Assembly: GCA_036273515.1 (NCBI GenBank)
Contig: DASUHM010000086.1
Coordinates: 1-33,902, forward strand
Length of the DNA stretch: 33,902 nucleotides
From: Gaiellales bacterium
GTDB taxonomy: Bacteria > Actinomycetota > Thermoleophilia > Gaiellales > JAICJC01
Reading direction: 5' to 3'
This document shows positions 507-33,902 of this stretch, one piece after another; position 1 is the stretch's first letter; each line of letters begins with the position of its first letter. The notes below the pieces were generated by a model. That model ran no database searches. It worked only from the letters and a program-made list of their open reading frames with translations, and was not told the origin of the DNA. The translations under genes and the position numbers were made by a program.

Positions 507-1577
507 CTATTCCTCCACGGTCACCAGACGCAGGCCCATGTGGCGGATGCCGCGGATGATCCGCGGGAGGGCCTGGATCGTGGCCGTGCGGTCGCCGCCG
601 CCGTCGTGCATGATCACGATCGAGCCCGGCTCGACGTGCGAGAGCACGGAGTGGACGATGCCCTTGGCGGTGCGCCCCGGCGCCCAGTCGCGTGGGTCGA
701 CCGACCACAGGACGACGCGGCAGTCGAGGCTCGACGCGATCGCGACCACCTGATCCGACCAGCCCCCGCCCGGCGGCCGGAACAGGGTCGGCTGCACGCC
801 CTCGGAGATGAGCGTCTGGCGGGCCTTTTCGATCTGCGCCCGCACCACCCCGGGGCGCTGCTCGCCGAACGGCGGCGTCAGCGGGTGGCTCCACGAGTGG
901 TCCTCGACGATCACGCCGCGCTGGCGGTCCTCGGCCCTGACGATGCCGGGATAGTGCGCGGCCAGGTCGCCGACGGTGAAGAACGTCGCCCGCGCGTGGA
1001 ACCGGCGCAGGATCGCCAGGATCCGCATGGTCTGCGTTCCCCACGGCCCGTCGTCGAAGGTGAGCGCGACCGCCTGCGGCACCTGCGGCGGGCCGGTCGG
1101 ACGGAACGCCGTCGACGCCACCTTGCCGGAGATGTTCCCGCGCACGGTGACCTCCTCGCCGGGCACCCGTCCGAGGGTGTACTCGGGATCGGCCGGCTCG
1201 CCTCCGGGCACGGGGACGCGCTGCGTCGTCACAGGCTCGGTGTGGTCCGGGCCGGGCACGAGCCGCAGGCTCTCCCCCGAGCGCAGCGGCTGCCCGCCGG
1301 GCAAGCGCGCGCCGTTCACGAGCACGTGGCCGGGGTACCGGCCGGCCGCGATCGTTACCCCGGCGACGTCGACCAGGTCGCCGGGCCGCGGCTTCAGGCC
1401 GAGGTCGCGGATCGCGTCGGCGAGCGTCGAGCCGGCCACTGCCTGCCGCAGCGTGCCGTCGACGCGCAGCTCGAGCGGCGCCGGCTGGTCGACGACCCCG
1501 GAGGCGCGCCATCCCGCGGCCACCAGCACGACGAAGACCAGCGCGACGCGCGATCCGATGCGCCCCATCCGTGCCAT
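507..1577 (-). CDS. Secreted or membrane-anchored polysaccharide deacetylase (NodB domain)
   Basis: 356 residues. An N-terminal hydrophobic segment (about 9-22) acts as signal or anchor. Residues about 35-108 look like a beta-grasp DUF348-type module (VDGTLRQAV, then STLADAIRDLGL). The NodB deacetylase domain follows from about 168 to 353. All NodB motifs are present: TFDDGP (173-178, catalytic and metal Asp), HSWSH (227-231, two metal His), RPPGG (267-271), WSVDPRDW (291-298) and HDGGG (324-328, catalytic His). The family removes N- or O-acetyl groups from peptidoglycan or other glycans outside the membrane. It lies 57 nt downstream of the DUF58 gene and may be the last gene of that envelope operon. 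A second ATG eight bases further upstream (1585) is out of frame. The substrate cannot be told from sequence. Confidence 0.9.
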   Translation of the reverse strand: MARMGRIGSRVALVFVVLVAAGWRASGVVDQPAPLELRVDGTLRQAVAGSTLADAIRDLGLKPRPGDLVDVAGVTIAAGRYPGHVLVNGARLPGGQPLRSGESLRLVPGPDHTEPVTTQRVPVPGGEPADPEYTLGRVPGEEVTVRGNISGKVASTAFRPTGPPQVPQAVALTFDDGPWGTQTMRILAILRRFHARATFFTVGDLAAHYPGIVRAEDRQRGVIVEDHSWSHPLTPPFGEQRPGVVRAQIEKARQTLISEGVQPTLFRPPGGGWSDQVVAIASSLDCRVVLWSVDPRDWAPGRTAKGIVHSVLSHVEPGSIVIMHDGGGDRTATIQALPRIIRGIRHMGLRLVTVEE

Positions 1578-23305: not shown

Positions 23306-24064
23306 ATGAGGGTCGCCGTCATTGGCGCGTCCGGCCTGGTCGGCCGGGCGGTACTCGGAAGTCTGGAGCGGGAGGGTCATACGGGCGTGGCCGTGTCGCG
23401 CTCGACGGGCGTGGACGTGCTCACCGGAGACGGCGACCTCGAGGCGGCCCTGGCCGGCTGCCACGCCGTCATCGATGTGCTGAACACCTCGGACAACGAG
23501 GGCGACGGCCCGCGCCGGTTCTTCACGGCGGCGACCAACAGCCTGCTGGTGGCCGAGCGGGAGGCGGGCGTGTCCCATCACGTCGTCCTCTCCATCGTCG
23601 GCGTCGACCGTATTCGTCATAACCCGCACTACATCGGGAAGCAGCACCAGGAGCGGCTGGCGCGATCCGGGCCGATCCCGGCGACGATCGTCCGGGCGAC
23701 GCAGTTCCACGACTTCGCCGGCATGGTTGCCTCGTGGACGCGAGACGGCGATTCGGCGTTCGTGCCGCCCCTGCTCGTCCAGCCGCTGGACGTCGGCGAT
23801 CTCGCCGAGATCCTGGTCGAGGTCGCATCGGGACCCGCCCGTGAGGACGGTCCGCTCGAGGTCGCGGGACCCGACTGCCAGGCGCTCGTCGACATGGCCC
23901 GGCGCACGCTGGCGGCTCGCGGCGAGGGCGTCCGGCTCACCACCGGCTGGCGGGAGCCGTTCGGCGTCGAGATGGCCGGCGACGTCCTCCTCCCCGGCCC
24001 GGATGCGCGCATCGCCTCGACGACGTTCGACGACTGGCTCGAGCGCCAGTCCCTGGCCGTCTAG
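23306..24064 (+). CDS. NAD(P)-binding reductase, atypical SDR/NmrA-like
   Basis: 252 residues, ATG 23306 with AGGGG three bases upstream. The Rossmann motif VIGASGLVGRAV (about 5-16) is of the GxxGxxG type used by NmrA-like and atypical SDR proteins. VLSIVGVDR and the later YIGKQHQERL supply the usual Tyr/Lys region seen in these families. ATIVRATQFHDF is characteristic of NmrA-like folds. The protein may be a redox sensor or a reductase; the substrate is not shown. It converges with the ABC1-kinase gene: their stop codons share the four bases CTAG at 24061-24064. Confidence 0.85.
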   Translation: MRVAVIGASGLVGRAVLGSLEREGHTGVAVSRSTGVDVLTGDGDLEAALAGCHAVIDVLNTSDNEGDGPRRFFTAATNSLLVAEREAGVSHHVVLSIVGVDRIRHNPHYIGKQHQERLARSGPIPATIVRATQFHDFAGMVASWTRDGDSAFVPPLLVQPLDVGDLAEILVEVASGPAREDGPLEVAGPDCQALVDMARRTLAARGEGVRLTTGWREPFGVEMAGDVLLPGPDARIASTTFDDWLERQSLAV

Positions 24065-25713
24065 AGCCGGCCGCTGCGCACGATCGAGAGCACGAGCACG
24101 AACCCGAGCGCGCTCGCCGTCAGGAAGCCGGCCAGCGCGAGCACGTGGATGCCGAACACGTGCCAGCCGCCCTGCGCGGAGATCCCGATCAGCGAGGAGC
24201 CGATCAGGAGCGCCGCCATGACGACGGCGATGACGAGCCGGTTGGCGACGACGTCCGCCTGACGGGTGAGCTCGTCGAGGCCCTTGTGGCGGAACTGCAC
24301 CTCGACCTCGCCGTCGCGCAGCTGCTCCAGCGTGTCGTGCACCTGGTAGGGCAGCTCCATCAGCAGGCCGCCGTAGCTCTCGAGCTCCTCGCGCGACCGG
24401 TCGAGCAGGCGCCGCGGCGAGTAGCGCCGGGCCACCAGCTCGGCGGCGTACGGCTCGGCCACCTCGAACACGTTGAAGTCGGGGTAGAGCTCGGTGCCGA
24501 CGCTGCCGAGCGTGGCAAGCGCCTTGTCGAGCAGGGCGAAGCGGGTCGGCAGCCGCAGGTGCATGCGCGAGACGAGCACGAACGCCTCCCGGATCACCTG
24601 GAGCGGGTCGATCTGCCCCATCGACGCCCCGTAGTAGCGGTAGTAGACCTCGCGCAGCTCGATCCGCAGCTCGTCCTCCTGCTCCTTCGAGAAGCGCACG
24701 CCGAGGTCGTAGAGCCGCCGCGGCAGGGCGTCGACGTTCTCGTTCACGGCGTCCAGCAGGAGGCGCGTCAGCCGGCGCATGTCGGCCTCGCTGAGCGACC
24801 CGGTCATGCCGAAGTCGACGAGGCCGAGGCGGCCGTCGCGCAGCACCATGATGTTCGCCGGATGCGGGTCGCCGTGGAAGACGCCGTGACGGAAGATCAT
24901 CTCGAGCCACGCCTCCGCGATCAGGATGGCCAGCCGGCGGCGCTCGTCCATCGGCGTCATCTCGAGGTCGAGGTCGCCGAGCTGCACGCCCTCCAGCCGC
25001 TCGAGCGTCAGCACCCGCTCGCTGGAGTACGTGCCGTAGACGCGCGGGATGGCGACGCGCGGCTCGTCGGCGAAGTTGCGCCGGAAGATCTCGGCGTTGC
25101 GGGCCTCGATGCGGTAGTCGAGCTCGCGCCGGATCGAGCGGGCGAACTCGTCGACGACCGCAACCGGATCGATGAACGACAGGCGATCGACCCGGCGGCG
25201 GACGATGCGGGCGACCTGGTAGAGCAGGCTGAGGTCGGACTCGACCCGGCGGGCCGCGTTCGGCCGCTGCACCTTCACGGCGACCAGGCGTCCGTTGGCG
25301 AGCTCGGCGAAGTGCACCTGCCCGATCGAGGCGGCGGCGACGGGGACGGGGTCGAAGTCGACGAAGAGGCGCTCGATCGGCGAGCGCAGCTCCGCGGCGA
25401 TCACCTGCTCGATGTCGGTGTAGGGCACCGGCGAGACGGAGTCCTGGAGCAGCCGCAGCTCGGACAGGATCTCCGGCGGGACGATGTCGGGACGGGTCGA
25501 GAGCAGCTGGCCGAACTTGACGAACGTGGGCCCCAGCTCGTCCAGCATCTCACGCAAGTGGCGGCCGAGGGCAGGCAGGTTCTGGGTCTCGATGACCTGT
25601 GAGCGGCGCAGCGTGCGTCGTTCGAACACGAACCCGAACCCGTGCTTCGTGGCGACCTGGGCGATCTCGCGCAGGCGGCCCATCGTCCGCCGCCTGTCCG
25701 CGAGCGTGGCCAT
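24061..25713 (-). CDS. UbiB/ABC1 (ADCK) atypical kinase-like protein
   Basis: 550 residues, ATG 25713. The family signatures are present: FVKFGQLLSTRPDIVPPEIL (the KxGQ motif, about 65-84), AASIGQVHFAEL (the Ala-rich nucleotide loop), VAVKVQRP (catalytic Lys), HGDPHPANIMV (catalytic Asp and Asn) and LVDFGMTG (Mg-binding Asp). Two hydrophobic segments at the C-terminus (about 497-515 and 520-545) anchor it in the membrane. Relatives support ubiquinone or other isoprenoid-lipid synthesis and act as ATPases more than as protein kinases. No quinone genes are nearby, so the pathway is not indicated here. Confidence 0.93.
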   Translation of the reverse strand: MATLADRRRTMGRLREIAQVATKHGFGFVFERRTLRRSQVIETQNLPALGRHLREMLDELGPTFVKFGQLLSTRPDIVPPEILSELRLLQDSVSPVPYTDIEQVIAAELRSPIERLFVDFDPVPVAAASIGQVHFAELANGRLVAVKVQRPNAARRVESDLSLLYQVARIVRRRVDRLSFIDPVAVVDEFARSIRRELDYRIEARNAEIFRRNFADEPRVAIPRVYGTYSSERVLTLERLEGVQLGDLDLEMTPMDERRRLAILIAEAWLEMIFRHGVFHGDPHPANIMVLRDGRLGLVDFGMTGSLSEADMRRLTRLLLDAVNENVDALPRRLYDLGVRFSKEQEDELRIELREVYYRYYGASMGQIDPLQVIREAFVLVSRMHLRLPTRFALLDKALATLGSVGTELYPDFNVFEVAEPYAAELVARRYSPRRLLDRSREELESYGGLLMELPYQVHDTLEQLRDGEVEVQFRHKGLDELTRQADVVANRLVIAVVMAALLIGSSLIGISAQGGWHVFGIHVLALAGFLTASALGFVLVLSIVRSGRL

Positions 25714-25805: not shown

Positions 25806-26387
25806 TCAGGTCGACGCGAGGGCGCGGAGCGTTCGCTCGCCGTGGTCGAGATGCCACTCGATCGCGGGGTCGGCCGGGTCGCGCCAGGCGAGCTCGAGCG
25901 ACTCGTGGCTCTTGCGCAGGTCGCCGTCCAGGATGCGGCACACGTAGACCAGGCCGACCTGGCCGTGCGGCGCCGCCGGGAGCGAGGCCGCCCGGAACTC
26001 GACGGAGCCGAGCCGCACCACCTCGACGGCGAGGCCCGTCTCCTCGGCCACCTCGCGGACCACCCCCTCGGTCGGCGACTCGTTCGACCCCAGCCAGCCG
26101 CCGGGTAGCCCCCAGCGGCCGTCGTCGGCGCGGCGGTCGAGCAGCACCCGGCCGGCCCCGTCGGGGATCACCGCCGTCGCCCCCACCTTCGGCGTCGGCG
26201 TGCCCAGGTCGCGGGCGAAACGCTCCCCCACCTCGGCCGCCGGCAGCCCCGCCAGCTCGGCGTAGAACTCATCCACGATCTGGCACATCCGCCGGTAGCG
26301 GGCCTGGTCGAACTCGCTCTCGGCGTAGGCCCGGCCCTCGTAGGCCAGGGTGCGCAGCTCGTCCAGCAGCGCGGCCGGGTCGATCAG
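25806..26387 (-). CDS. NUDIX hydrolase with N-terminal NUDIX-associated domain (apparent CTG start)
   Basis: 193 residues if begun at CTG 26387, which overlaps the upstream stop as CTGA, with GGAG six bases before it. The first Met in frame (26288) lies 33 codons in and would cut through an N-terminal helical domain recognisable as the NUDIX_N type (LLDELRTLAYEGRAYAES, then FDQARYRR). No ATG, GTG or TTG lies in between. The NUDIX box GGWLGSNESPTEGVVREVAEETGL fits GX5EX7REUXEEXGU and holds the metal-binding Glu residues. Such proteins hydrolyse nucleoside diphosphates linked to another moiety, for example ADP-ribose or nucleotide sugars. The third gene of the minus arm of the glycan-like cluster. 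Confidence 0.85.
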   Translation of the reverse strand: MIDPAALLDELRTLAYEGRAYAESEFDQARYRRMCQIVDEFYAELAGLPAAEVGERFARDLGTPTPKVGATAVIPDGAGRVLLDRRADDGRWGLPGGWLGSNESPTEGVVREVAEETGLAVEVVRLGSVEFRAASLPAAPHGQVGLVYVCRILDGDLRKSHESLELAWRDPADPAIEWHLDHGERTLRALAST

Positions 26388-27766
26388 ACGAGGCTCCGGC
26401 CCTGCATGTCCGCGGGCACGGGCAGGCCGAGCGCGGTCAGCACCGTGGGCGCGATGTCGAACAGGCGCGCGTCGGCCGGCACCGCCGCGGGCATCCCCGG
26501 GCCGGCGAAGATCGAGATGCCGAACTTGGCGTGGTTGGCGTCGTCCGGCCCGGTGTCGTTCTCGCGCACGTGGACGCGGCCGTCACCGACCGAGCCGATC
26601 GAGCGCCAGCCCAGGTTGCCGAAGTAGGCGATCAGGTCGGGCGCGACGTTGTTCACCTCGTGGTAGAGGTCCTCGGGCCGGAAGACGCGGGTGCCGATCG
26701 AATTTCCGTCCTCGTCGCCCAGCGCCTCGAGCTTCCCGATCAGCTCGTCGCGGAGCGCTTCGTAGTCGGCCGGGTCGACGGTGCCGTCGGGCTCGCGGCC
26801 GTTCACGTTCAGGAAGATGCGCGAGTAGTAGCCGCCGTCGGCCCACACCCGCGTCCGCGGCCAGTCGATCGTGCAGCGGCCGATCGGCGTCTGCTCGGAG
26901 GGCGGGTCGACGAGCGTCAGGTAGCCGTTCTGCATCAGCCACTCGTTGATCTGGATGCCTCCGAACATCGCCTGGGCGCCGTGGTCGGAGACGACCATGA
27001 GCGCCGTGTCGTCGCCGAGGCCCTCGATCAGCGACCCCACCTCGGAGTCGAGGTAGCGGTAGTAGTCGCGGAAGGCGGCCTCGAGTGACGTCCCCGGCAC
27101 GTAGTCGGGGTGGTTCGGGTCGTAGAACCGCCACAGCGCGTGATGCAGGCGGTCGGGGCCCATCTCGACCAGCATGAAGAAGTCCCACGGCCGCGTGTCG
27201 CGCAGGTGGCGGGCGAGCGCGAAGCGGCGCTCGGTCATCGTGTGGATGTCGCGCACGACCCGCTCGCGGTCGTCCGTGCGGTAGTCCGGCACGTCGACCA
27301 TGTAGTCGCCGACGACCTCGCGGATCTCCTCCTTCAGCGCTTCGGGATAGGTGTAGCGGCTGTCCGTCGAGGGGGTGAGAAAGCAGCTCACCATCTCGCC
27401 GTTCACCTGCCGGGGCGGGAACGTCTGCGGCACCCCGAGCGCGACGACGTGCTTGCCGGCCCGCGAGAGGATGTCCCAGAGCCGGTCGGCGCGCACCTTC
27501 TCCGACGTGGCGAACGCCATCCCGTCGTAGGAGTGGTCCTTGCGGTTGCGGAAGCCGTAGAAGCCGAGCGTGCCCGGGTCCTTCGACGACATCATGCACG
27601 ACCAGGCCGGCACGGTGATGGGCGGGTCGCACGACTCGAGCTTGCCCCACGCCCCCCGCTCCATCAGCCCGGACAGCACGGGCAGCTCGTCGCGCATGTC
27701 GTCGAACACGATCTCGGGCGCGACGCAGTCGAGCCCCACGATCATCAGCCGCCGCGGACGCGCCAT
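26384..27766 (-). CDS. AlkP-superfamily phosphodiesterase/nucleotide pyrophosphatase-like, minus arm
   Basis: 460 residues, ATG 27766 with GGGGAG six bases upstream, two bases after the methyltransferase stop. The alkaline-phosphatase superfamily metal site can be followed: MIVGLDCV (Asp13), PPITVPAWSCMM (nucleophile Thr about 51), MGPDRLHH (Asp and His about 204 and 208), VVSDHGA (about 258-264) and NHAKFG (His about 411). It fits the type I phosphodiesterase/pyrophosphatase branch, which cleaves phosphodiester or pyrophosphate bonds. No signal peptide is seen, so a cytoplasmic substrate such as a nucleotide-activated or lipid-linked intermediate is possible. The function is not fixed by sequence. 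Confidence 0.88.
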   Translation of the reverse strand: MARPRRLMIVGLDCVAPEIVFDDMRDELPVLSGLMERGAWGKLESCDPPITVPAWSCMMSSKDPGTLGFYGFRNRKDHSYDGMAFATSEKVRADRLWDILSRAGKHVVALGVPQTFPPRQVNGEMVSCFLTPSTDSRYTYPEALKEEIREVVGDYMVDVPDYRTDDRERVVRDIHTMTERRFALARHLRDTRPWDFFMLVEMGPDRLHHALWRFYDPNHPDYVPGTSLEAAFRDYYRYLDSEVGSLIEGLGDDTALMVVSDHGAQAMFGGIQINEWLMQNGYLTLVDPPSEQTPIGRCTIDWPRTRVWADGGYYSRIFLNVNGREPDGTVDPADYEALRDELIGKLEALGDEDGNSIGTRVFRPEDLYHEVNNVAPDLIAYFGNLGWRSIGSVGDGRVHVRENDTGPDDANHAKFGISIFAGPGMPAAVPADARLFDIAPTVLTALGLPVPADMQGRSLV

Positions 27767-27768
27767 GC

Positions 27769-28557
27769 CTACTCCCCGCGGTGGGTGAAGCAGAGCATCT
27801 TCTGGTTGCGCGGGTTGTCCCAGCCACCCATGTACTCGACCTTGAGCCCCGTGCCCTCGCAGAGCCACTCGAACACGCTCAGGTGGTAGTGGAAGAAGTC
27901 GCGGTCGAGGTGGGTGACGAGGCCCGGCTTCTGCTGGACGTCCGTGATCTCGCGCGGGCCGCGGGTGTCCTCGTAGAACGTCGCGAAGAACTTGCCGGCC
28001 GGGGCGAGCGCCCGGTCCATCTCGACCAGGCAGCGCATGATCTCGTTGATCGAGAGGTGCGTGAACACCGACTGGGCGAGCGCGAAGTCGAACGCTCGGT
28101 GGAGCGTGCCGAACTCGAAGTGGTGCAGCTCGCGCAGCACCGGCTGCTTGGCGATCAGGCCGCGCGGGCGCAGGTCGAAGTCGCGGCCGGCCTCGATCAG
28201 GTCGAAGCGGCGGTCGATGCCGTAGTAGTGCCCGGTCTCGAGGTACTCGATGAAGCGCCAGCCGCCGCGCAGCGGGCCGCAGCCGACGTCGAGCAGGTAG
28301 TGCTCCGGCTGGAGGCCGTGGTCGACCAGGTACTGGAACTGGAGCGTCCCGAGCTCCTCCCACATGCCGCCGATGCCGCGCCGGTGCCAGCCCGGATCGA
28401 CGTACTTGTAGACCTGGCGCGGCAGCGCCTTTCGCACGCGCCGCTTGACGGGGACGGGCACGATCGGCTCGATCGTCCCGAACGCGCGCTGGAGGGCCTT
28501 CTGGGTGGCGAGGCGGGCCTCGCCCGTGATTCCGCTGGGGCTCTGGGTCGCGGGCAT
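27769..28557 (-). CDS. Class I SAM-dependent methyltransferase
   Basis: 262 residues, ATG 28557. SAM-binding motif I is LLDVGCGPLRGG (88-99), then YYGIDRR (motif II acidic residue) and FALAQSVFTHL (motif IV). A basic N-terminal 50 residues (VKRRVRKALPRQVYK) may contact membrane or phosphate. The region GGMWEELGTLQFQYLVDHG before motif I is typical of methyltransferases found in glycan clusters. It heads the minus arm, divergent from the first ATP-grasp gene by 43 nt, with an apparent leaderless promoter. The methyl acceptor is unknown; a sugar hydroxyl or carboxyl is a plausible inference from context. Confidence 0.87.
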   Translation of the reverse strand: MPATQSPSGITGEARLATQKALQRAFGTIEPIVPVPVKRRVRKALPRQVYKYVDPGWHRRGIGGMWEELGTLQFQYLVDHGLQPEHYLLDVGCGPLRGGWRFIEYLETGHYYGIDRRFDLIEAGRDFDLRPRGLIAKQPVLRELHHFEFGTLHRAFDFALAQSVFTHLSINEIMRCLVEMDRALAPAGKFFATFYEDTRGPREITDVQQKPGLVTHLDRDFFHYHLSVFEWLCEGTGLKVEYMGGWDNPRNQKMLCFTHRGE

Positions 28558-28563
28558 CGCAGG

Positions 28564-28569
28564 ACATTA
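28564..28569 (-). promoter_or_regulatory. Candidate leaderless -10 (TAATGT) for the methyltransferase operon
   Basis: On the minus strand TAATGT ends six bases (CCTGCG) before ATG 28557. This is the same geometry as rel and recJ. Confidence 0.5.
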
Positions 28570-28600
28570 GCGCGTGACGGTGTGCCAGACTGGAGGCACC

Positions 28601-29611
28601 GTGGCCACCGTTCTCGTCACCGCCGCCGGGGCGCCCGGCTGCCCGCGCCTGATCCGGGCGCTGCGCGAGGCCGGGCACACGGTCGTCGGCACCGACGCGA
28701 ACCCGCGCTCGGCCGGCTCGCGCCTGTGCGACCGCTTCGCCGTCGTCCCCCGCGGCGACGACCCCGGCTTCATTCCGGCGATGCGGGCGGCCGCGGCCGA
28801 GCTCGGCGCGGACGTCGTCTTCCCCACGTCGTCGTCCGAGATCGTGGCCTGGTCGCGCGCCCGCGCCGACTTCGGGCTGCCCGTGCTGGCCGGGCCGGCC
28901 GCGGGCGTCGAGGCGGCCTCGGACAAGGCCGAGACGTTCCGGCTGGCCGACCGCGCCGGCGTCCCCCACCCGCGCACCATCGAGGTGGACGATCCCGACG
29001 CCTTCGCCGCCGCCGTGCGCGAGCTCGGCTACCCGGAGCGGCGGGTCGTCATGAAGCCGACCCAGGCCAAGGGCTCGCGCGGCTTCCGCATCCTCGACCC
29101 GACGGCCGACCGGCGCCGCTGGCTGCTCGAGTCGCGGCCCGGCGAGGCGGCGCCGGAGCGGCTGGAGGATGTGCTCGAGCTGCTCGGCCAGGGCTCGTTC
29201 CCGGCCTACATCGTCCAGGAGTTCCTCGACGGGCCCGAGGAGACCGTCGATGCGATCTGCCTCGGCGGCGAGATGCTCCTGCCCATGACCCGCACCCGTG
29301 AGGCGCTGCGGGCGGGCCTCGCGATGGACTTCACGCTGCTCGACCGTCCGCACGAGGAGGCGCACTCCTCCCGGCTCTCCGAGGTGCTGGCCGCGGACTA
29401 CTTCCTCTCGGTGCAGTTCAAGGGCGGCAAGCTGATGGAGATCAACCCGCGGGTCTCGACGATCGTCTACACGCCCGACATCAACCCGCCGGCGCTCGCC
29501 GTCGGCCTCGCGCTCGGCACGACGGATCCGCAGGAGCTTCGCCGGCTGCGCCCGCGGGTGCCAGTTGGCAGACGCGCGATCCGCTATTTCGACCAGGTTG
29601 AGTTCGCGTAG
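28601..29611 (+). CDS. ATP-grasp ligase 1 (CarB-like fold)
   Basis: 336 residues from GTG 28601, preferred over GTG 28574 because GGAGG lies five bases before it and the Rossmann strand ATVLVTAAGAPG begins there. Pre-ATP-grasp domain about 1-110; ATP-binding region VVMKPTQAKGSRGF (about 149-162), linker YIVQEFLDGPEETVDAI (about 203-219), and metal/ATP motif LMEINPRVST near 280. ATP-grasp enzymes join a carboxylate to an amine through an acyl-phosphate. The substrates are not predictable. The pairing with a second ATP-grasp gene 57 nt downstream suggests two successive ligations. Confidence 0.87.
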   Translation: MATVLVTAAGAPGCPRLIRALREAGHTVVGTDANPRSAGSRLCDRFAVVPRGDDPGFIPAMRAAAAELGADVVFPTSSSEIVAWSRARADFGLPVLAGPAAGVEAASDKAETFRLADRAGVPHPRTIEVDDPDAFAAAVRELGYPERRVVMKPTQAKGSRGFRILDPTADRRRWLLESRPGEAAPERLEDVLELLGQGSFPAYIVQEFLDGPEETVDAICLGGEMLLPMTRTREALRAGLAMDFTLLDRPHEEAHSSRLSEVLAADYFLSVQFKGGKLMEINPRVSTIVYTPDINPPALAVGLALGTTDPQELRRLRPRVPVGRRAIRYFDQVEFA

Positions 29612-29651
29612 CGACGCGGTTCAAGCGGGCAGGCGCGACGAGCCCGGCCGG

Positions 29652-29657
29652 TAGAAT
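29652..29657 (+). promoter_or_regulatory. Candidate -10 (TAGAAT) for ATP-grasp gene 2
   Basis: TAGAAT lies 11 bases before ATG 29669, implying a leader of about four or five bases. No Shine-Dalgarno is visible. This would start the second half of the plus arm independently. Confidence 0.45.
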
Positions 29658-29668
29658 CGCCCGCTGTC

Positions 29669-30865
29669 ATGAGCGCATCCGCACCCACGAGGCCCGCCGC
29701 CGTCGTCGCCAACGTCGGCTGGGTGAACGGCCTCGCCGCCATCCGCTCGCTGGGCCGAAACGGCGTGAGGGCGCTCGCGGTCGACCACCGCCCCTGGGCG
29801 CTCGGATTCCGGTCGCGCTACGCGACGCCCGTGTCGGCGCCCGACCCGGTCGCCGACGAGGAGGGCTTCGTGGCGGCGCTCGCCCGGCTGGGCGAGACGC
29901 TGGACGGCCCCGTGCCCGCGTTGGCCACCCATGACGAGCACATCAACGTGCTCGCCCGCCGCAGCGCCGACATCGGCGCCGTCTTCCGGCCGTGCACGCC
30001 CGAGTGGGACGTGCTCGAGGCGATCCAGCGCAAGCGCCACCAGCTCGACGTCGCCGCGGAGGCGGGCGTGCCGGTGCCGGCAACCCGCCATCCCCGCTCC
30101 ACCGCGGAGGCCCGGGCCGCGGCCGAGGAGATCGGCTACCCGGTGCTGGTGAAGCCCTCCGATCCGGTCGGCTTCAAGCGAATTCACGGCCGGCAGGCGT
30201 TCCGGTGCGAGTCCGCCGCCGAGGTCGAGACGGCCTATGCCCAGGCCGAGCCGTTCGAGCCGATGGTGCAGGAGTACATCCCCGGCGGCGACGAGGAGCT
30301 CTACACGCTCGGCAGCTATCTGACGGCCGACGGCGAGGCGCTCGGGATCTTCACCGGCCGCAAGCTGCGCCAGACCCGCCAGCACATGGGCGTCTGCCGG
30401 GTGGCCGAGGCGGTGTGGGTGCCCGAAGTGGCCGAGCACGGCCTCGCCCTCCTGCGGGCGCTGCGGTTCCGCGGCATCTCGCAGGTCGAGTTCAAGCGCG
30501 ACCCGCGCACCGGCGAGCACAAGCTGATCGAGGTGAACCCGCGGCTGTGGCAGTGGCACGGGCTCGCCACCGCCTGCGGCGTCGACCTGACGCACATCGC
30601 CTATCTCGACCTCGTCGGCCGGCGGCCGGCGCCGGCGCGGATGACGAACGAGGGCCGGCGCTGGGCGATCACGTTCATGACCGGCGCCCGGCACGCCATC
30701 CAGAAGCCGCCATACACCGACGCGCTGCTCGCCCGCGACGACCCGAAGCCCGCGATCGTCCAGCTCGGCAGGGTCGCCCGCGGCGGGGTCCGCGCCGCCC
30801 GCGGTCGGGCCGCCGCGAGCATGGCGGTCGCGAAGCTCACCCGGCGGGTGGAGCGGCATGGCTAG
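29669..30865 (+). CDS. ATP-grasp ligase 2 (D-aspartate ligase/carboxylate-amine ligase-like)
   Basis: 398 residues, ATG 29669. N-terminal domain with VVANVGWVNGLAAIRSLGRNGV and VDHRPWALGFRSRYA, the usual start of the predicted ATP-grasp group related to D-aspartate ligases. ATP-binding region YPVLVKPSDPVGFKRI near 156-171, MVQEYIPGGDEELYTLGSYL near 200-219, and LIEVNPRLWQWHG near 288-300 with the metal-binding Glu and Asn. The basic C-terminal tail (about 370-398) is rich in Arg and may contact membrane. Overlaps the glycosyltransferase gene by 8 nt. It probably amidates or aminoacylates a glycan or peptide precursor; substrate unknown. Confidence 0.88.
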   Translation: MSASAPTRPAAVVANVGWVNGLAAIRSLGRNGVRALAVDHRPWALGFRSRYATPVSAPDPVADEEGFVAALARLGETLDGPVPALATHDEHINVLARRSADIGAVFRPCTPEWDVLEAIQRKRHQLDVAAEAGVPVPATRHPRSTAEARAAAEEIGYPVLVKPSDPVGFKRIHGRQAFRCESAAEVETAYAQAEPFEPMVQEYIPGGDEELYTLGSYLTADGEALGIFTGRKLRQTRQHMGVCRVAEAVWVPEVAEHGLALLRALRFRGISQVEFKRDPRTGEHKLIEVNPRLWQWHGLATACGVDLTHIAYLDLVGRRPAPARMTNEGRRWAITFMTGARHAIQKPPYTDALLARDDPKPAIVQLGRVARGGVRAARGRAAASMAVAKLTRRVERHG

Positions 30866-31988
30866 CGGCAACGGCGACCGCCCCCTGCGCGTCCTCGGCG
30901 TCGGCAACGGCCGCTCGATCATCTTCCTGCGCTGGGCGTGGCGGGTGGCCGAGCTCGGCCACGACGTCCACATCGTCTCCGACACGTTCACCGACCGGGC
31001 CGAGGAGCTCGAGGGGATCACCGCCCACCGCGTCCAGGAGCTCGAGCTCGCCACCCGGCTGAAGGGCGTGCGCCGGATGCGGTTCGCGCCGGCCATCCGC
31101 AACCTGGCCCGCCGGCTCGACGTCGACCTCGTCCACGCCCACTACCTGCTCCCGTACGGCTACTGGGCGGCCGAGGCGGGCATCCACCCGCTCGTCATGA
31201 GCCCCTGGAACACCGACATCTTCACGTACGGGCGCGACAACCCCCGGGGCCGCAAGCGCGTCCGCGCGGCGGTGGCCGCCGGCGACGACTACGTCGTGAG
31301 CTCGATCGGGAACGCCGACGAGACCGTCCGCCTCGGCGCCGACCCCGACCGCGTCCACCGGATCGTCTGGTACGTCGACCTGCGCCCGTTCGGCCCGGAG
31401 CACCGCACGCCGGGCCTGGCCGCCCGCCACGGCTGGCCGGACGACTCGCTGGTCATCCTCTCCCTGCGCAACTACCGCCCGAACACGAACCTCGACGTGC
31501 TCCTGCGCGCGTTCGACCGGGTGTCGAAGGAGGAGCCGCGGGTGCGCCTCATCATGGCCGCCCGGGGCGGCTGGATCCGCGACGAGATCGAGGCCGTCCT
31601 GGACGAGCTCGAGCTGCGCGACCGGGTCGCCCAGATGTTCGCGGCCCCGGACGAGCTGGCCGAGCTCTGCGCCTCGTCGGACATCGGCATCTCGATCGCC
31701 TCGACCGATGCCACGCCCGCCTCGATGATCGAGTCGATGGCCTCGGGGCTGCCGATGGTGATGGGCGACGCGATCACGATCGACGAGTGGATCACGCCCG
31801 GCGAGGGCGGCGAGGTGGTCGACTGCCGCGACGAGGACGCCGTCACCGAGGCCCTCCTGAAGCTCGTGCGCGATCCCGACCTGCGGGCCCGCTACGGCGA
31901 GCGCAACATCCGCGTGACCCGGGAGCGGCTGGCACCACCCGGGCCGGCGCTGGTCGACCTCTACCGCGACATGCTCGCCCGCCGATGA
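30858..31988 (+). CDS. GT4 family glycosyltransferase
   Basis: 376 residues, ATG 30858 inside the end of the ATP-grasp gene. GT-B fold: N-terminal half with VLGVGNGRSIIFLRWAWRV, VDLVHAHYLLPYG and SPWNTDIFTYGRD; C-terminal half with VILSLRNYRPNTNLDVLLRAF and the donor-binding region ATPASMIESMASGLPMVMGD (EX7E-like with Glu), then the closing helix. It transfers a sugar from a nucleotide donor to an acceptor, with retention as the family norm. Donor and acceptor are not known. The ATGA overlap with the next gene implies coupling to the AlkP-like enzyme. Confidence 0.9.
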   Translation: MASGNGDRPLRVLGVGNGRSIIFLRWAWRVAELGHDVHIVSDTFTDRAEELEGITAHRVQELELATRLKGVRRMRFAPAIRNLARRLDVDLVHAHYLLPYGYWAAEAGIHPLVMSPWNTDIFTYGRDNPRGRKRVRAAVAAGDDYVVSSIGNADETVRLGADPDRVHRIVWYVDLRPFGPEHRTPGLAARHGWPDDSLVILSLRNYRPNTNLDVLLRAFDRVSKEEPRVRLIMAARGGWIRDEIEAVLDELELRDRVAQMFAAPDELAELCASSDIGISIASTDATPASMIESMASGLPMVMGDAITIDEWITPGEGGEVVDCRDEDAVTEALLKLVRDPDLRARYGERNIRVTRERLAPPGPALVDLYRDMLARR

Positions 31989-33604
31989 GGGTGCTCTGCC
32001 TGGGCATGGACGGCGCCGACTACGGCCTCGTCGGCGAGCTGCTCGAGCAGGACCGCCTGCCCACGCTCAGGGGGATCATCCGCGACGGCGCCTACGGGCC
32101 GCTGCGCTCGACCGTGCCCGCCGCGACGCCGACGGCCTGGTCGTCGTTCCTGACCGGCCTGAACCCCGCCCGGCACGGCATCTTCAACTTCTCGACGAAC
32201 GCCAACCGGGCGCCCTCGCGCCTGGAGAGCGCGCGCAGCCGCTCCGGCGTGCCGCTGTGGCGCACGCTCGGCGCGGCCGGCGTGCGCTCCGCCTTCGTCA
32301 CGGTGCCGTTCACCTACCCGGCCGAGGAGGTGGACGGGATCATCGTGTCCGGGTACGGGGGCCCGCCCGAGCCCCAGATCGTGCCCGCCTCGGCGGCGGC
32401 CGCGATCCACGCCCGCCACCCCGGCCTCGTCACCGCCCACCACCCGATGCGTGAGCGCTGGTGGGAGGACTTCGACCGCTACGCGCGGCTGCTGGTCGAC
32501 CACGTCGGCGAGATCGAGTCGGTGTGCGAGCAGTGCTTCGAGCTCGAGCCCGACCTGGGCGTGCTCGTCGTCGACTTCATGAGCACCGACTTCGCCGGGC
32601 ATCTCGGCTACGCCCGGCTCGACCCAAAGCACCCGGCCCACGACGCCGCCGACGCGGGCGACGAGCTCGTCCAGGTGTACGAGGCGGTCGACGCCGCCTG
32701 CGGGCGCCTGATCGACGCGGCCCGGGAGCGGTTCGGCGAGGAGCCGACCGTGCTCATGATGTCCGACCACGGCATGAAGCCGATGTACTGGGTCTTCCAC
32801 CTCAACCGCTGGCTCGAGGAGCACGGCTACCTGCGCTACCGCGCGCGCTCGCTGCAGCGGACGAAGGGCACGCGCCTGCGCTCGCTGGCGGGCGTCGACC
32901 AGCGCCTGGCCCGCACGTCGGGGCTCTACACCCGGATCGCCGACGCGAACCCGCTCGTCCCGCGGACGGCCGCCGACCGCGCCTTCGCCGACATCGACTT
33001 CCCCCGCACCCGCGCCTACTCGTTCGCGACCGGCGGCCAGGTGTACCTGGGCGAGTCGAGCGGCGCGTCCGCCGATCCGGCGCTGGCCGAGCGGATCGCG
33101 ACCGAGCTCGAGGCCGAGCGCCATCCCGAGACCGGCGAGCAGCTCCTGCGCGTCCTGCGCAAGCCCGACATCTACCACGGCCCCCACCTCGACCGCGCCC
33201 CCGACCTGATCGTGCTCTCGATCGACGAGCGCATCCACGTCGACTCCCTGCGCCGCAGCGGCACTCCCGCGATCGAGGTGCACGACACGCTCGACCCCGA
33301 GAACGCCTACGGCTACTCGGGCCACCACGGCATCGACGGCATCCTGGGCGCGCGCGGCCCCGGGATCCGCCCCGGCAGCGTGCCGGAGGGGTCGGGGATC
33401 GTCCAGATGGCCGCCACGATTCTGCGCCTGCACGGCATCGAGGCCGACGGCCTCGACGGCGCCCCGATCGACGCGATCCTGGCCCGGGAGGGCGACGCCG
33501 TGCACGTCGCCGCCCAGGCGACGGACGGGAGCGACGAGGGCGTCTACAGCGCCGACGAGGAGGCCGGGATCCTCGAGCGGCTGCGCGACCTCGGCTACGA
33601 GTGA
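31985..33604 (+). CDS. AlkP-superfamily phosphodiesterase-like, plus arm
   Basis: 539 residues, ATG 31985 overlapping the glycosyltransferase stop (ATGA). AlkP metal ligands are seen in LGMDGAD (Asp9), AATPTAWSSFLTG (nucleophile Thr about 48), VDFMSTDFAGH (Asp and His), MMSDHGMKP and GYSGHHGIDGIL (His). The tail, with YSADEEAGILERLRDLGYE, is seen in many bacterial members of this branch. It is about 80 residues longer than the minus-arm relative at 26384-27766 and only distantly similar to it, so a recent tandem duplication is unlikely. No signal peptide is evident. The substrate is unknown; phosphate-linked glycan or lipid intermediates are plausible. Confidence 0.88.
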   Translation: MRVLCLGMDGADYGLVGELLEQDRLPTLRGIIRDGAYGPLRSTVPAATPTAWSSFLTGLNPARHGIFNFSTNANRAPSRLESARSRSGVPLWRTLGAAGVRSAFVTVPFTYPAEEVDGIIVSGYGGPPEPQIVPASAAAAIHARHPGLVTAHHPMRERWWEDFDRYARLLVDHVGEIESVCEQCFELEPDLGVLVVDFMSTDFAGHLGYARLDPKHPAHDAADAGDELVQVYEAVDAACGRLIDAARERFGEEPTVLMMSDHGMKPMYWVFHLNRWLEEHGYLRYRARSLQRTKGTRLRSLAGVDQRLARTSGLYTRIADANPLVPRTAADRAFADIDFPRTRAYSFATGGQVYLGESSGASADPALAERIATELEAERHPETGEQLLRVLRKPDIYHGPHLDRAPDLIVLSIDERIHVDSLRRSGTPAIEVHDTLDPENAYGYSGHHGIDGILGARGPGIRPGSVPEGSGIVQMAATILRLHGIEADGLDGAPIDAILAREGDAVHVAAQATDGSDEGVYSADEEAGILERLRDLGYE

Positions 33605-33902
33605 CCGGGCCGCGGCTCGAGCTGGACGTCCCCGATGGGTTCGCCGCCGAGGCCCGTTGGACGCTCGAGACGCTGCTCGGCGCGTGCGCGGCGCCGACGG
33701 CTGAGACCGTCCGCTACGGCGGGTCGAGTGGCCTGGACGTGTCGGAGCGGGCCTGGCAGCTATTCGCGGAGGGCGAGGCGTTCAGGCCGGCCCTGGGCGA
33801 CGCCGGCATGCTCGACTTCGGCGACGGCGCCCGCGACCTGGTGGCGAGCGCGTTCTGGCATCTGTCGCGCTGCGAGGAGCGCGGCGGCGCCCGCGACGAG
33901 CA
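33601..33902 (+). CDS. DUF7033/polysaccharide-deacetylase-like protein, 5' part only
   Basis: The reading frame opens with GTG 33601 on the previous stop (GTGA) and stays open to the end of the window, about 100 codons. It contains a Gly-Ser region (RYGGSSGLDVSERAW) and then LDFGDGARDLVASAFWHLSRCEE. The pattern of Asp, aliphatic, Ala-Ser then aromatic, LSR and EE is typical of DUF7033, which precedes polysaccharide-deacetylase-like domains. The catalytic part lies outside the window. The operon context fits a glycan-modifying enzyme. The call is moderate. Confidence 0.6.
   Translation, partial: MTGPRLELDVPDGFAAEARWTLETLLGACAAPTAETVRYGGSSGLDVSERAWQLFAEGEAFRPALGDAGMLDFGDGARDLVASAFWHLSRCEERGGARDE

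Follow-up and report, generated by a model that had tools for sequence, protein, structure and literature searches.

What is made by a cluster that combines two ATP-grasp ligases, two AlkP-superfamily enzymes, a GT4 glycosyltransferase and a methyltransferase, and where does such a cluster begin and end? The question was raised by a locus in a soil-type actinobacterium (Gaiellales) with a 4.07-Mb draft genome. Among the named genomes of the species collection, the closest to it is JAICJC010000046.1, a Thermoleophilia MAG from the same genus. The window, that is, the whole stretch of DNA analyzed, is the entire contig C86 of 33,902 bases. A first-pass annotation had read the locus as two divergent arms of overlapping genes that together could make an amidated surface glycan, and all of the families named in it (two AlkP, two ATP-grasp, GT4, methyltransferase and NUDIX) were recovered by Pfam. 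The features needed for the argument are as follows.

24061-25713, minus strand: UbiB-like kinase, the left boundary of the island and the same boundary in five genomes (G000-G004)
25806-26288, minus strand: NUDIX hydrolase, in the flank, outside the island
26384-27766, minus strand: AlkP1, 460 aa, AlkP-superfamily phosphodiesterase (PF01663, Pfam E 1.5e-43)
27769-28557, minus strand: MT, 262 aa, class I SAM methyltransferase (Pfam Methyltransf_11/12)
28558-28600: divergent intergenic region, 43 bp
28601-29611, plus strand: ATP-grasp 1, 336 aa (Pfam PylC-like_N / ATPgrasp_Ter)
29669-30865, plus strand: ATP-grasp 2, 398 aa (Pfam CPSase_L_D2), candidate amino-acid ligase
30858-31988, plus strand: GT4 glycosyltransferase, 376 aa (Pfam)
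31985-33604, plus strand: AlkP2, 539 aa, predicted NPP fold (PF01663, Pfam E 1.3e-35)
33601-33902, plus strand: start of the gene for a DUF7033 (PF23019) / VimE-like putative sugar deacetylase, cut at the contig end

The 43-bp divergent region was confirmed, and a promoter scan found no sigma-70-like promoter within it. The overlaps that had been described inside each arm held for three plus-arm junctions, ATP-grasp 2/GT4 (8 bp), GT4/AlkP2 (4 bp) and AlkP2/DUF7033 (4 bp), and nowhere else: ATP-grasp 1 and ATP-grasp 2 are separated by a 57-bp gap, and the minus arm has no overlaps because AlkP1 and MT are 2 bp and NUDIX and AlkP1 95 bp apart. The left flank of the island consists of NUDIX, UbiB, RecJ and RelA. 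The NUDIX gene, previously counted in the minus arm, was considered as an island member and rejected, as it stays with the UbiB-RecJ-RelA block in the sister genome, where an extra gene lies between NUDIX and AlkP1. Elsewhere in the window (507-1577, minus strand), a polysaccharide-deacetylase-like (NodB-type) protein was recognized by eye from its translation only.

The end of the window is the end of the contig, and C86 holds just the first 100 codons of the DUF7033 gene. When the sequence was traced past position 33902, the 3' part of this gene was located on another contig of this genome, C19, encoding 288 aa with 86% identity to the sister-species orthologue, against which about 119 bp were judged to be absent between the two contigs. 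Beyond it on C19 lie convergent secDF, tgt and queA, followed by ruvB, ruvA, ruvC and yebC; secDF and tgt were matched to the sister genome, and the other housekeeping genes were named by eye from their translations. Since housekeeping genes stand on both sides, the locus is a closed seven-gene island in the order AlkP1, MT, then divergently ATP-grasp 1, ATP-grasp 2, GT4, AlkP2 and DUF7033. Its neighbors are thus housekeeping genes and not part of an unrelated pathway, and its gene order is partly conserved across the taxonomic order, so that neither of the two outcomes named beforehand as refuting the first-pass interpretation was observed.

The site of the island was identical in all five sampled family genomes, with UbiB on one side and SecDF-Tgt on the other, and the interior differed. 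These flanks enclose still other contents in G001, G003 and G004 (the ends in G004 lie on separate contigs), and the interiors of G003 and G004 hold a Wzx flippase and sulfotransferases. In the sister species, AlkP1, ATP-grasp 2, GT4, AlkP2 and DUF7033 are 83-95% identical to those of the island, and the places of ATP-grasp 1 and MT are taken by a different methyltransferase, a sulfotransferase (PF13469) and a WbqC protein (PF08889). Another family of the order shows, at three loci, AlkP1-DUF7033 diverging from Wzx-ATP-grasp 2-(MT)-GT4-AlkP2. Related clusters with the same genes also hold Wzx (PF01943), Wzy_C, GT4, DegT, epimerase, sulfotransferase and WbqC genes, and MT orthologues (51-53%) adjoin GT4 in other families. 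We concluded that this is a fixed-site island with variable contents, and that the association of its genes is not due to chance. The proposal of an amidated surface glycan was partly supported by this context of Wzx, Wzy-like, glycosyltransferase, sulfotransferase and WbqC genes in the relatives, and by the VimE-type homologue, which would offer the ATP-grasp enzymes a plausible amine.

No Wzx, Wzy or initiating phosphoglycosyl transferase was found in the island of this genome, and the sister copy likewise lacks them, so the product of either copy may be no more than a decoration or a soluble compound. The one Wzx-like flippase gene recovered from this genome lies on contig C35, surrounded by TCA-cycle genes; because it is unlinked, the island may make a decoration or special sugar for a polysaccharide assembled elsewhere. 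On C35 (L182:9011-13154), the Wzx-like gene follows mdh, has rsgA and a sulfatase-type AlkP gene nearby, and is distant from every other glycan gene, with a comparable arrangement in G001 and G002.

The gene cut by the contig end proved to be a genuine DUF7033-like gene, as had been suggested, with PF23019 found by Pfam in the complete sister orthologue. The VimE model NF053580 (NCBIfam; UDP-2,3-diacetamido-glucuronate deacetylase) matched 15 of 15 DUF7033 homologues; the best match was the sister orthologue, at 136 bits and E 1.4e-39, below the curated cut-off of 440, and the alignment was near full-length (residues 79-412 of member 1 onto 89-429 of 431). The match to PF01522 was weak (E 0.014 at best), and residues D144, D146 and H255, compared with the CE4 / NodB-type Asp/His motif, were invariant in the homologues. 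The protein had no sequence match in the PDB, and a full-text literature search returned no mention of DUF7033. For Porphyromonas, the published proposal is that VimE takes off the C-2 acetyl group, after which VimA attaches Ser or Gly, and the VimE activity itself is termed putative (PMC7468200). The VimA/FemAB-type model TIGR03019 found no protein in this genome at E 1e-3 and none in G002, G066 and G069; no match rose above the cut-off in nine genomes, with sub-cut-off matches in G001, G003, G004, G012 and G051. In 25 of the 28 genomes having both, the genes for DUF7033 and ATP-grasp 2 lie no more than 12 kb apart, where about 0.27 would be expected by chance. Given that no VimA/FemAB-type protein was found here and that the VimE-like gene has ATP-grasp 2 as a linked partner, aminoacylation by an ATP-grasp enzyme is the natural hypothesis.

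ATP-grasp 2 is an ATP-grasp ligase judging by its ATP/Mg residues and modeled fold: K122, K162, E202, E274, E288, N290 and R292 were invariant in an alignment of orthologues, and the predicted structure matched the biotin-carboxylase-type ATP-grasp fold. A deacetylated sugar amine and an amino acid would be plausible substrates. ATP-grasp 1 orthologues occurred in 62 of 101 relatives, and the two ATP-grasp genes shared one cluster in 15 of the 26 genomes having both. The many roles of ATP-grasp enzymes count against the aminoacylation of a surface sugar. In the most probable alternative, an ordinary Wzx/Wzy-type locus, the ATP-grasp enzymes may amidate a carboxyl group or modify it with a peptide, for example on a uronic acid, independently of the deacetylase. 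The glycan-locus context in relatives agrees with this, as do the varied ATP-grasp genes that abound in these loci (one of them ending in an L-amino acid ligase domain), and three full-length UDP-sugar dehydrogenases, found by a WbpA-type search and unlinked to the island, could supply uronic acids. In contrast, no dehydrogenase lies inside the island, and the tight linkage between ATP-grasp 2 and DUF7033 hints that the two act in concert on an amine. We consider carboxyl modification unlikely.

The coupling of GT4 and AlkP2 was similarly persistent, with GT4 directly upstream of AlkP2 in 11 of the 12 genomes where this could be judged and a 4-bp overlap in eight. AlkP2 orthologues were present in 11 of 101 relatives, all among the 21 with AlkP1 (Fisher p 2e-9, uncorrected for relatedness). 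The link between AlkP1 and AlkP2 is not only physical, because the two genes are on separate contigs in G051, G060, G061 and G093, which are draft assemblies where nearby placement is possible. AlkP1 may be a general enzyme, as in G009 and G033 it was found outside glycan loci, beside aspartate kinase. Its seven predicted metal/nucleophile residues were invariant in 14 orthologues; in AlkP2, D9, D202, H206, D261, H262 and H448 were invariant in 10 orthologues and T48 was kept in nine of the 10, and of 24 sequences, 23 have Thr or Ser at the predicted nucleophile position 48. T50 was dropped as the AlkP2 nucleophile in favor of T48 after alignment with AlkP1 and distant homologues. Single-sequence PDB searches of AlkP1 and AlkP2 gave nothing, and profile searches gave matches; the AlphaFold model of AlkP2 (mean pLDDT 89.9) had ENPP1 and Xac NPP as top PDB matches (E about 1e-15), with ENPP3 bound to UDP-GlcNAc also among them. 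AlkP1 and AlkP2 look like cytosolic NPP-type phosphodiesterases, not secreted phosphate transferases.

Several side observations concern these enzymes. In G001 (L069:7198-8811), codon 48 of AlkP2 is Met (ATG), the sole such case in the 24 sequences, and this is also the sole AlkP2 gene without an adjacent GT4; a dead or freed gene copy, or an error in sequencing, could account for this. The C-terminus of AlkP2 (33575-33604 in the window) carries an RLRDLGYE tail that was invariant in 10 of 10 orthologues, with LGY kept in most distant homologues. Genes for distant AlkP homologues in Chloroflexi, Planctomycetes and others (six loci: L118, L120, L129, L154, L158 and L159) are often tandem pairs, with up to four AlkP genes in tandem at L129.

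A glycosyltransferase, a nucleotide pyrophosphatase, a deacetylase and a ligase could also serve a small soluble or secreted glycoconjugate, following a tunicamycin-like or thiol-cofactor-like logic. The tunicamycin cluster has the same trio, namely the transferase TunD, the N-deacetylase TunE and the nucleotide pyrophosphatase TunH (about 510 aa), and all three are essential (PMC6105854, PMC6965331). Also in favor of this reading, no flippase gene lies in the island, and GT4 bears a weak likeness to BshA and MshA. However, GT4 scored far under the BshA cut-off (94.6 of 273.7), Wzx lies inside the cluster in relatives, and sulfotransferases and WbqC point to a surface glycan, so that a small glycoconjugate seems very unlikely. 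The MshC model, used as a mycothiol test, was uninformative because it matched 14 of 14 control genomes too.

The weakest alternative, in which AlkP1 and AlkP2 would transfer phosphoglycerol or phosphoethanolamine to build a phosphoglycan, a product that the first-pass annotation had named, has in its favor that the AlkP superfamily includes such transferases, and we consider it highly improbable: those known to us are membrane-bound and act outside, AlkP1 and AlkP2 have no hydrophobic segment above KD 1.2, AlkP2 models as an NPP, and membrane-bound transferases are disfavored because no membrane or signal segment was found in any island protein.

Considering these results together, the reading that we prefer, and hold to be evenly balanced between right and wrong, is that of a fixed-site surface-glycan island in which VimE-like deacetylation would be followed by ATP-grasp aminoacylation, with cytosolic NPP-fold phosphodiesterases taking part. 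The pairing of the genes comes from the sequence; we infer the substrates, the order of the steps, the amino acid and the roles of the AlkP enzymes. All steps would occur in the cytosol. The VimE-like DUF7033 enzyme would take the N-acetyl group off a sugar, probably nucleotide- or lipid-linked, and ATP-grasp 2, perhaps together with ATP-grasp 1, would use ATP to attach an amino acid, or a carboxylate like it, to the amine so exposed, performing the step given to VimA in Porphyromonas. GT4 would then transfer a sugar, and the translationally coupled AlkP2 would cut a phosphodiester or pyrophosphate bond, either in that intermediate or in the used carrier, with AlkP1 carrying out a related, less specialized cleavage. 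The methyltransferase may cap or decorate the product, where relatives would use sulfotransferases, and a flippase, linked in relatives and on contig C35 here, would export it.

It is possible, though rather doubtful, that actinobacteria of this order produce a surface sugar with an amide-linked amino acid through an undescribed route, in which VimE-like deacetylation is combined with an ATP-grasp enzyme in place of VimA and with a GT4-coupled cytosolic NPP-fold enzyme as an obligate step, in islands that swap their tailoring genes. A full-text literature search returned no paper combining nucleotide pyrophosphatase, ATP-grasp, polysaccharide biosynthesis and gene cluster, and only one, irrelevant paper for COG3379. 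The locus is now a bounded, conserved island with testable chemistry and not a loose list of enzyme families. If the preferred reading is true, amino-acid-tagged surface sugars extend beyond the Bacteroidota, and ATP-grasp ligases can stand in for VimA. Furthermore, the coupling to GT4 offers a function to test for the widespread, uncharacterized cytosolic AlkP phosphodiesterases.

Compared with known systems, AlkP2 shares the fold and the seven metal/nucleophile positions of the NPP / PF01663 enzymes (ENPP1, ENPP3 and Xac NPP), and differs from them in its predicted cytosolic location, its length of about 540 aa, an extra middle region, the ERLRDLGYE tail and an identity of 13-18% to the solved enzymes. 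The trio shared with tunicamycin biosynthesis is a likeness in logic: the seven island proteins belong to other Pfam families than TunA, TunB and TunC, and housekeeping genes close the island, so that membership in that pathway fails because these other essential genes are absent from it; the putative island deacetylase, moreover, is of the VimE/DUF7033 type. Wzx/Wzy capsule and exopolysaccharide loci resemble the island in their fixed site, variable interior, GT4 and modifying enzymes, with a flippase and a Wzy-like gene in the related loci, whereas here the flippase is unlinked and the island has neither polymerase nor initiating transferase. The Wbp/Vim route to a linking sugar in Porphyromonas gingivalis and Tannerella forsythia (PMC7468200) differs in having the VimA acyltransferase where the island has ATP-grasp enzymes, while the island adds an AlkP pair, contains no Wbp genes and has an actinobacterial host, and protein anchoring is not part of our reading. 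In common with that pathway, a VimE-type homologue is proposed to act before the joining of an amino acid, and in relatives its gene is located with glycan genes and Wzx.
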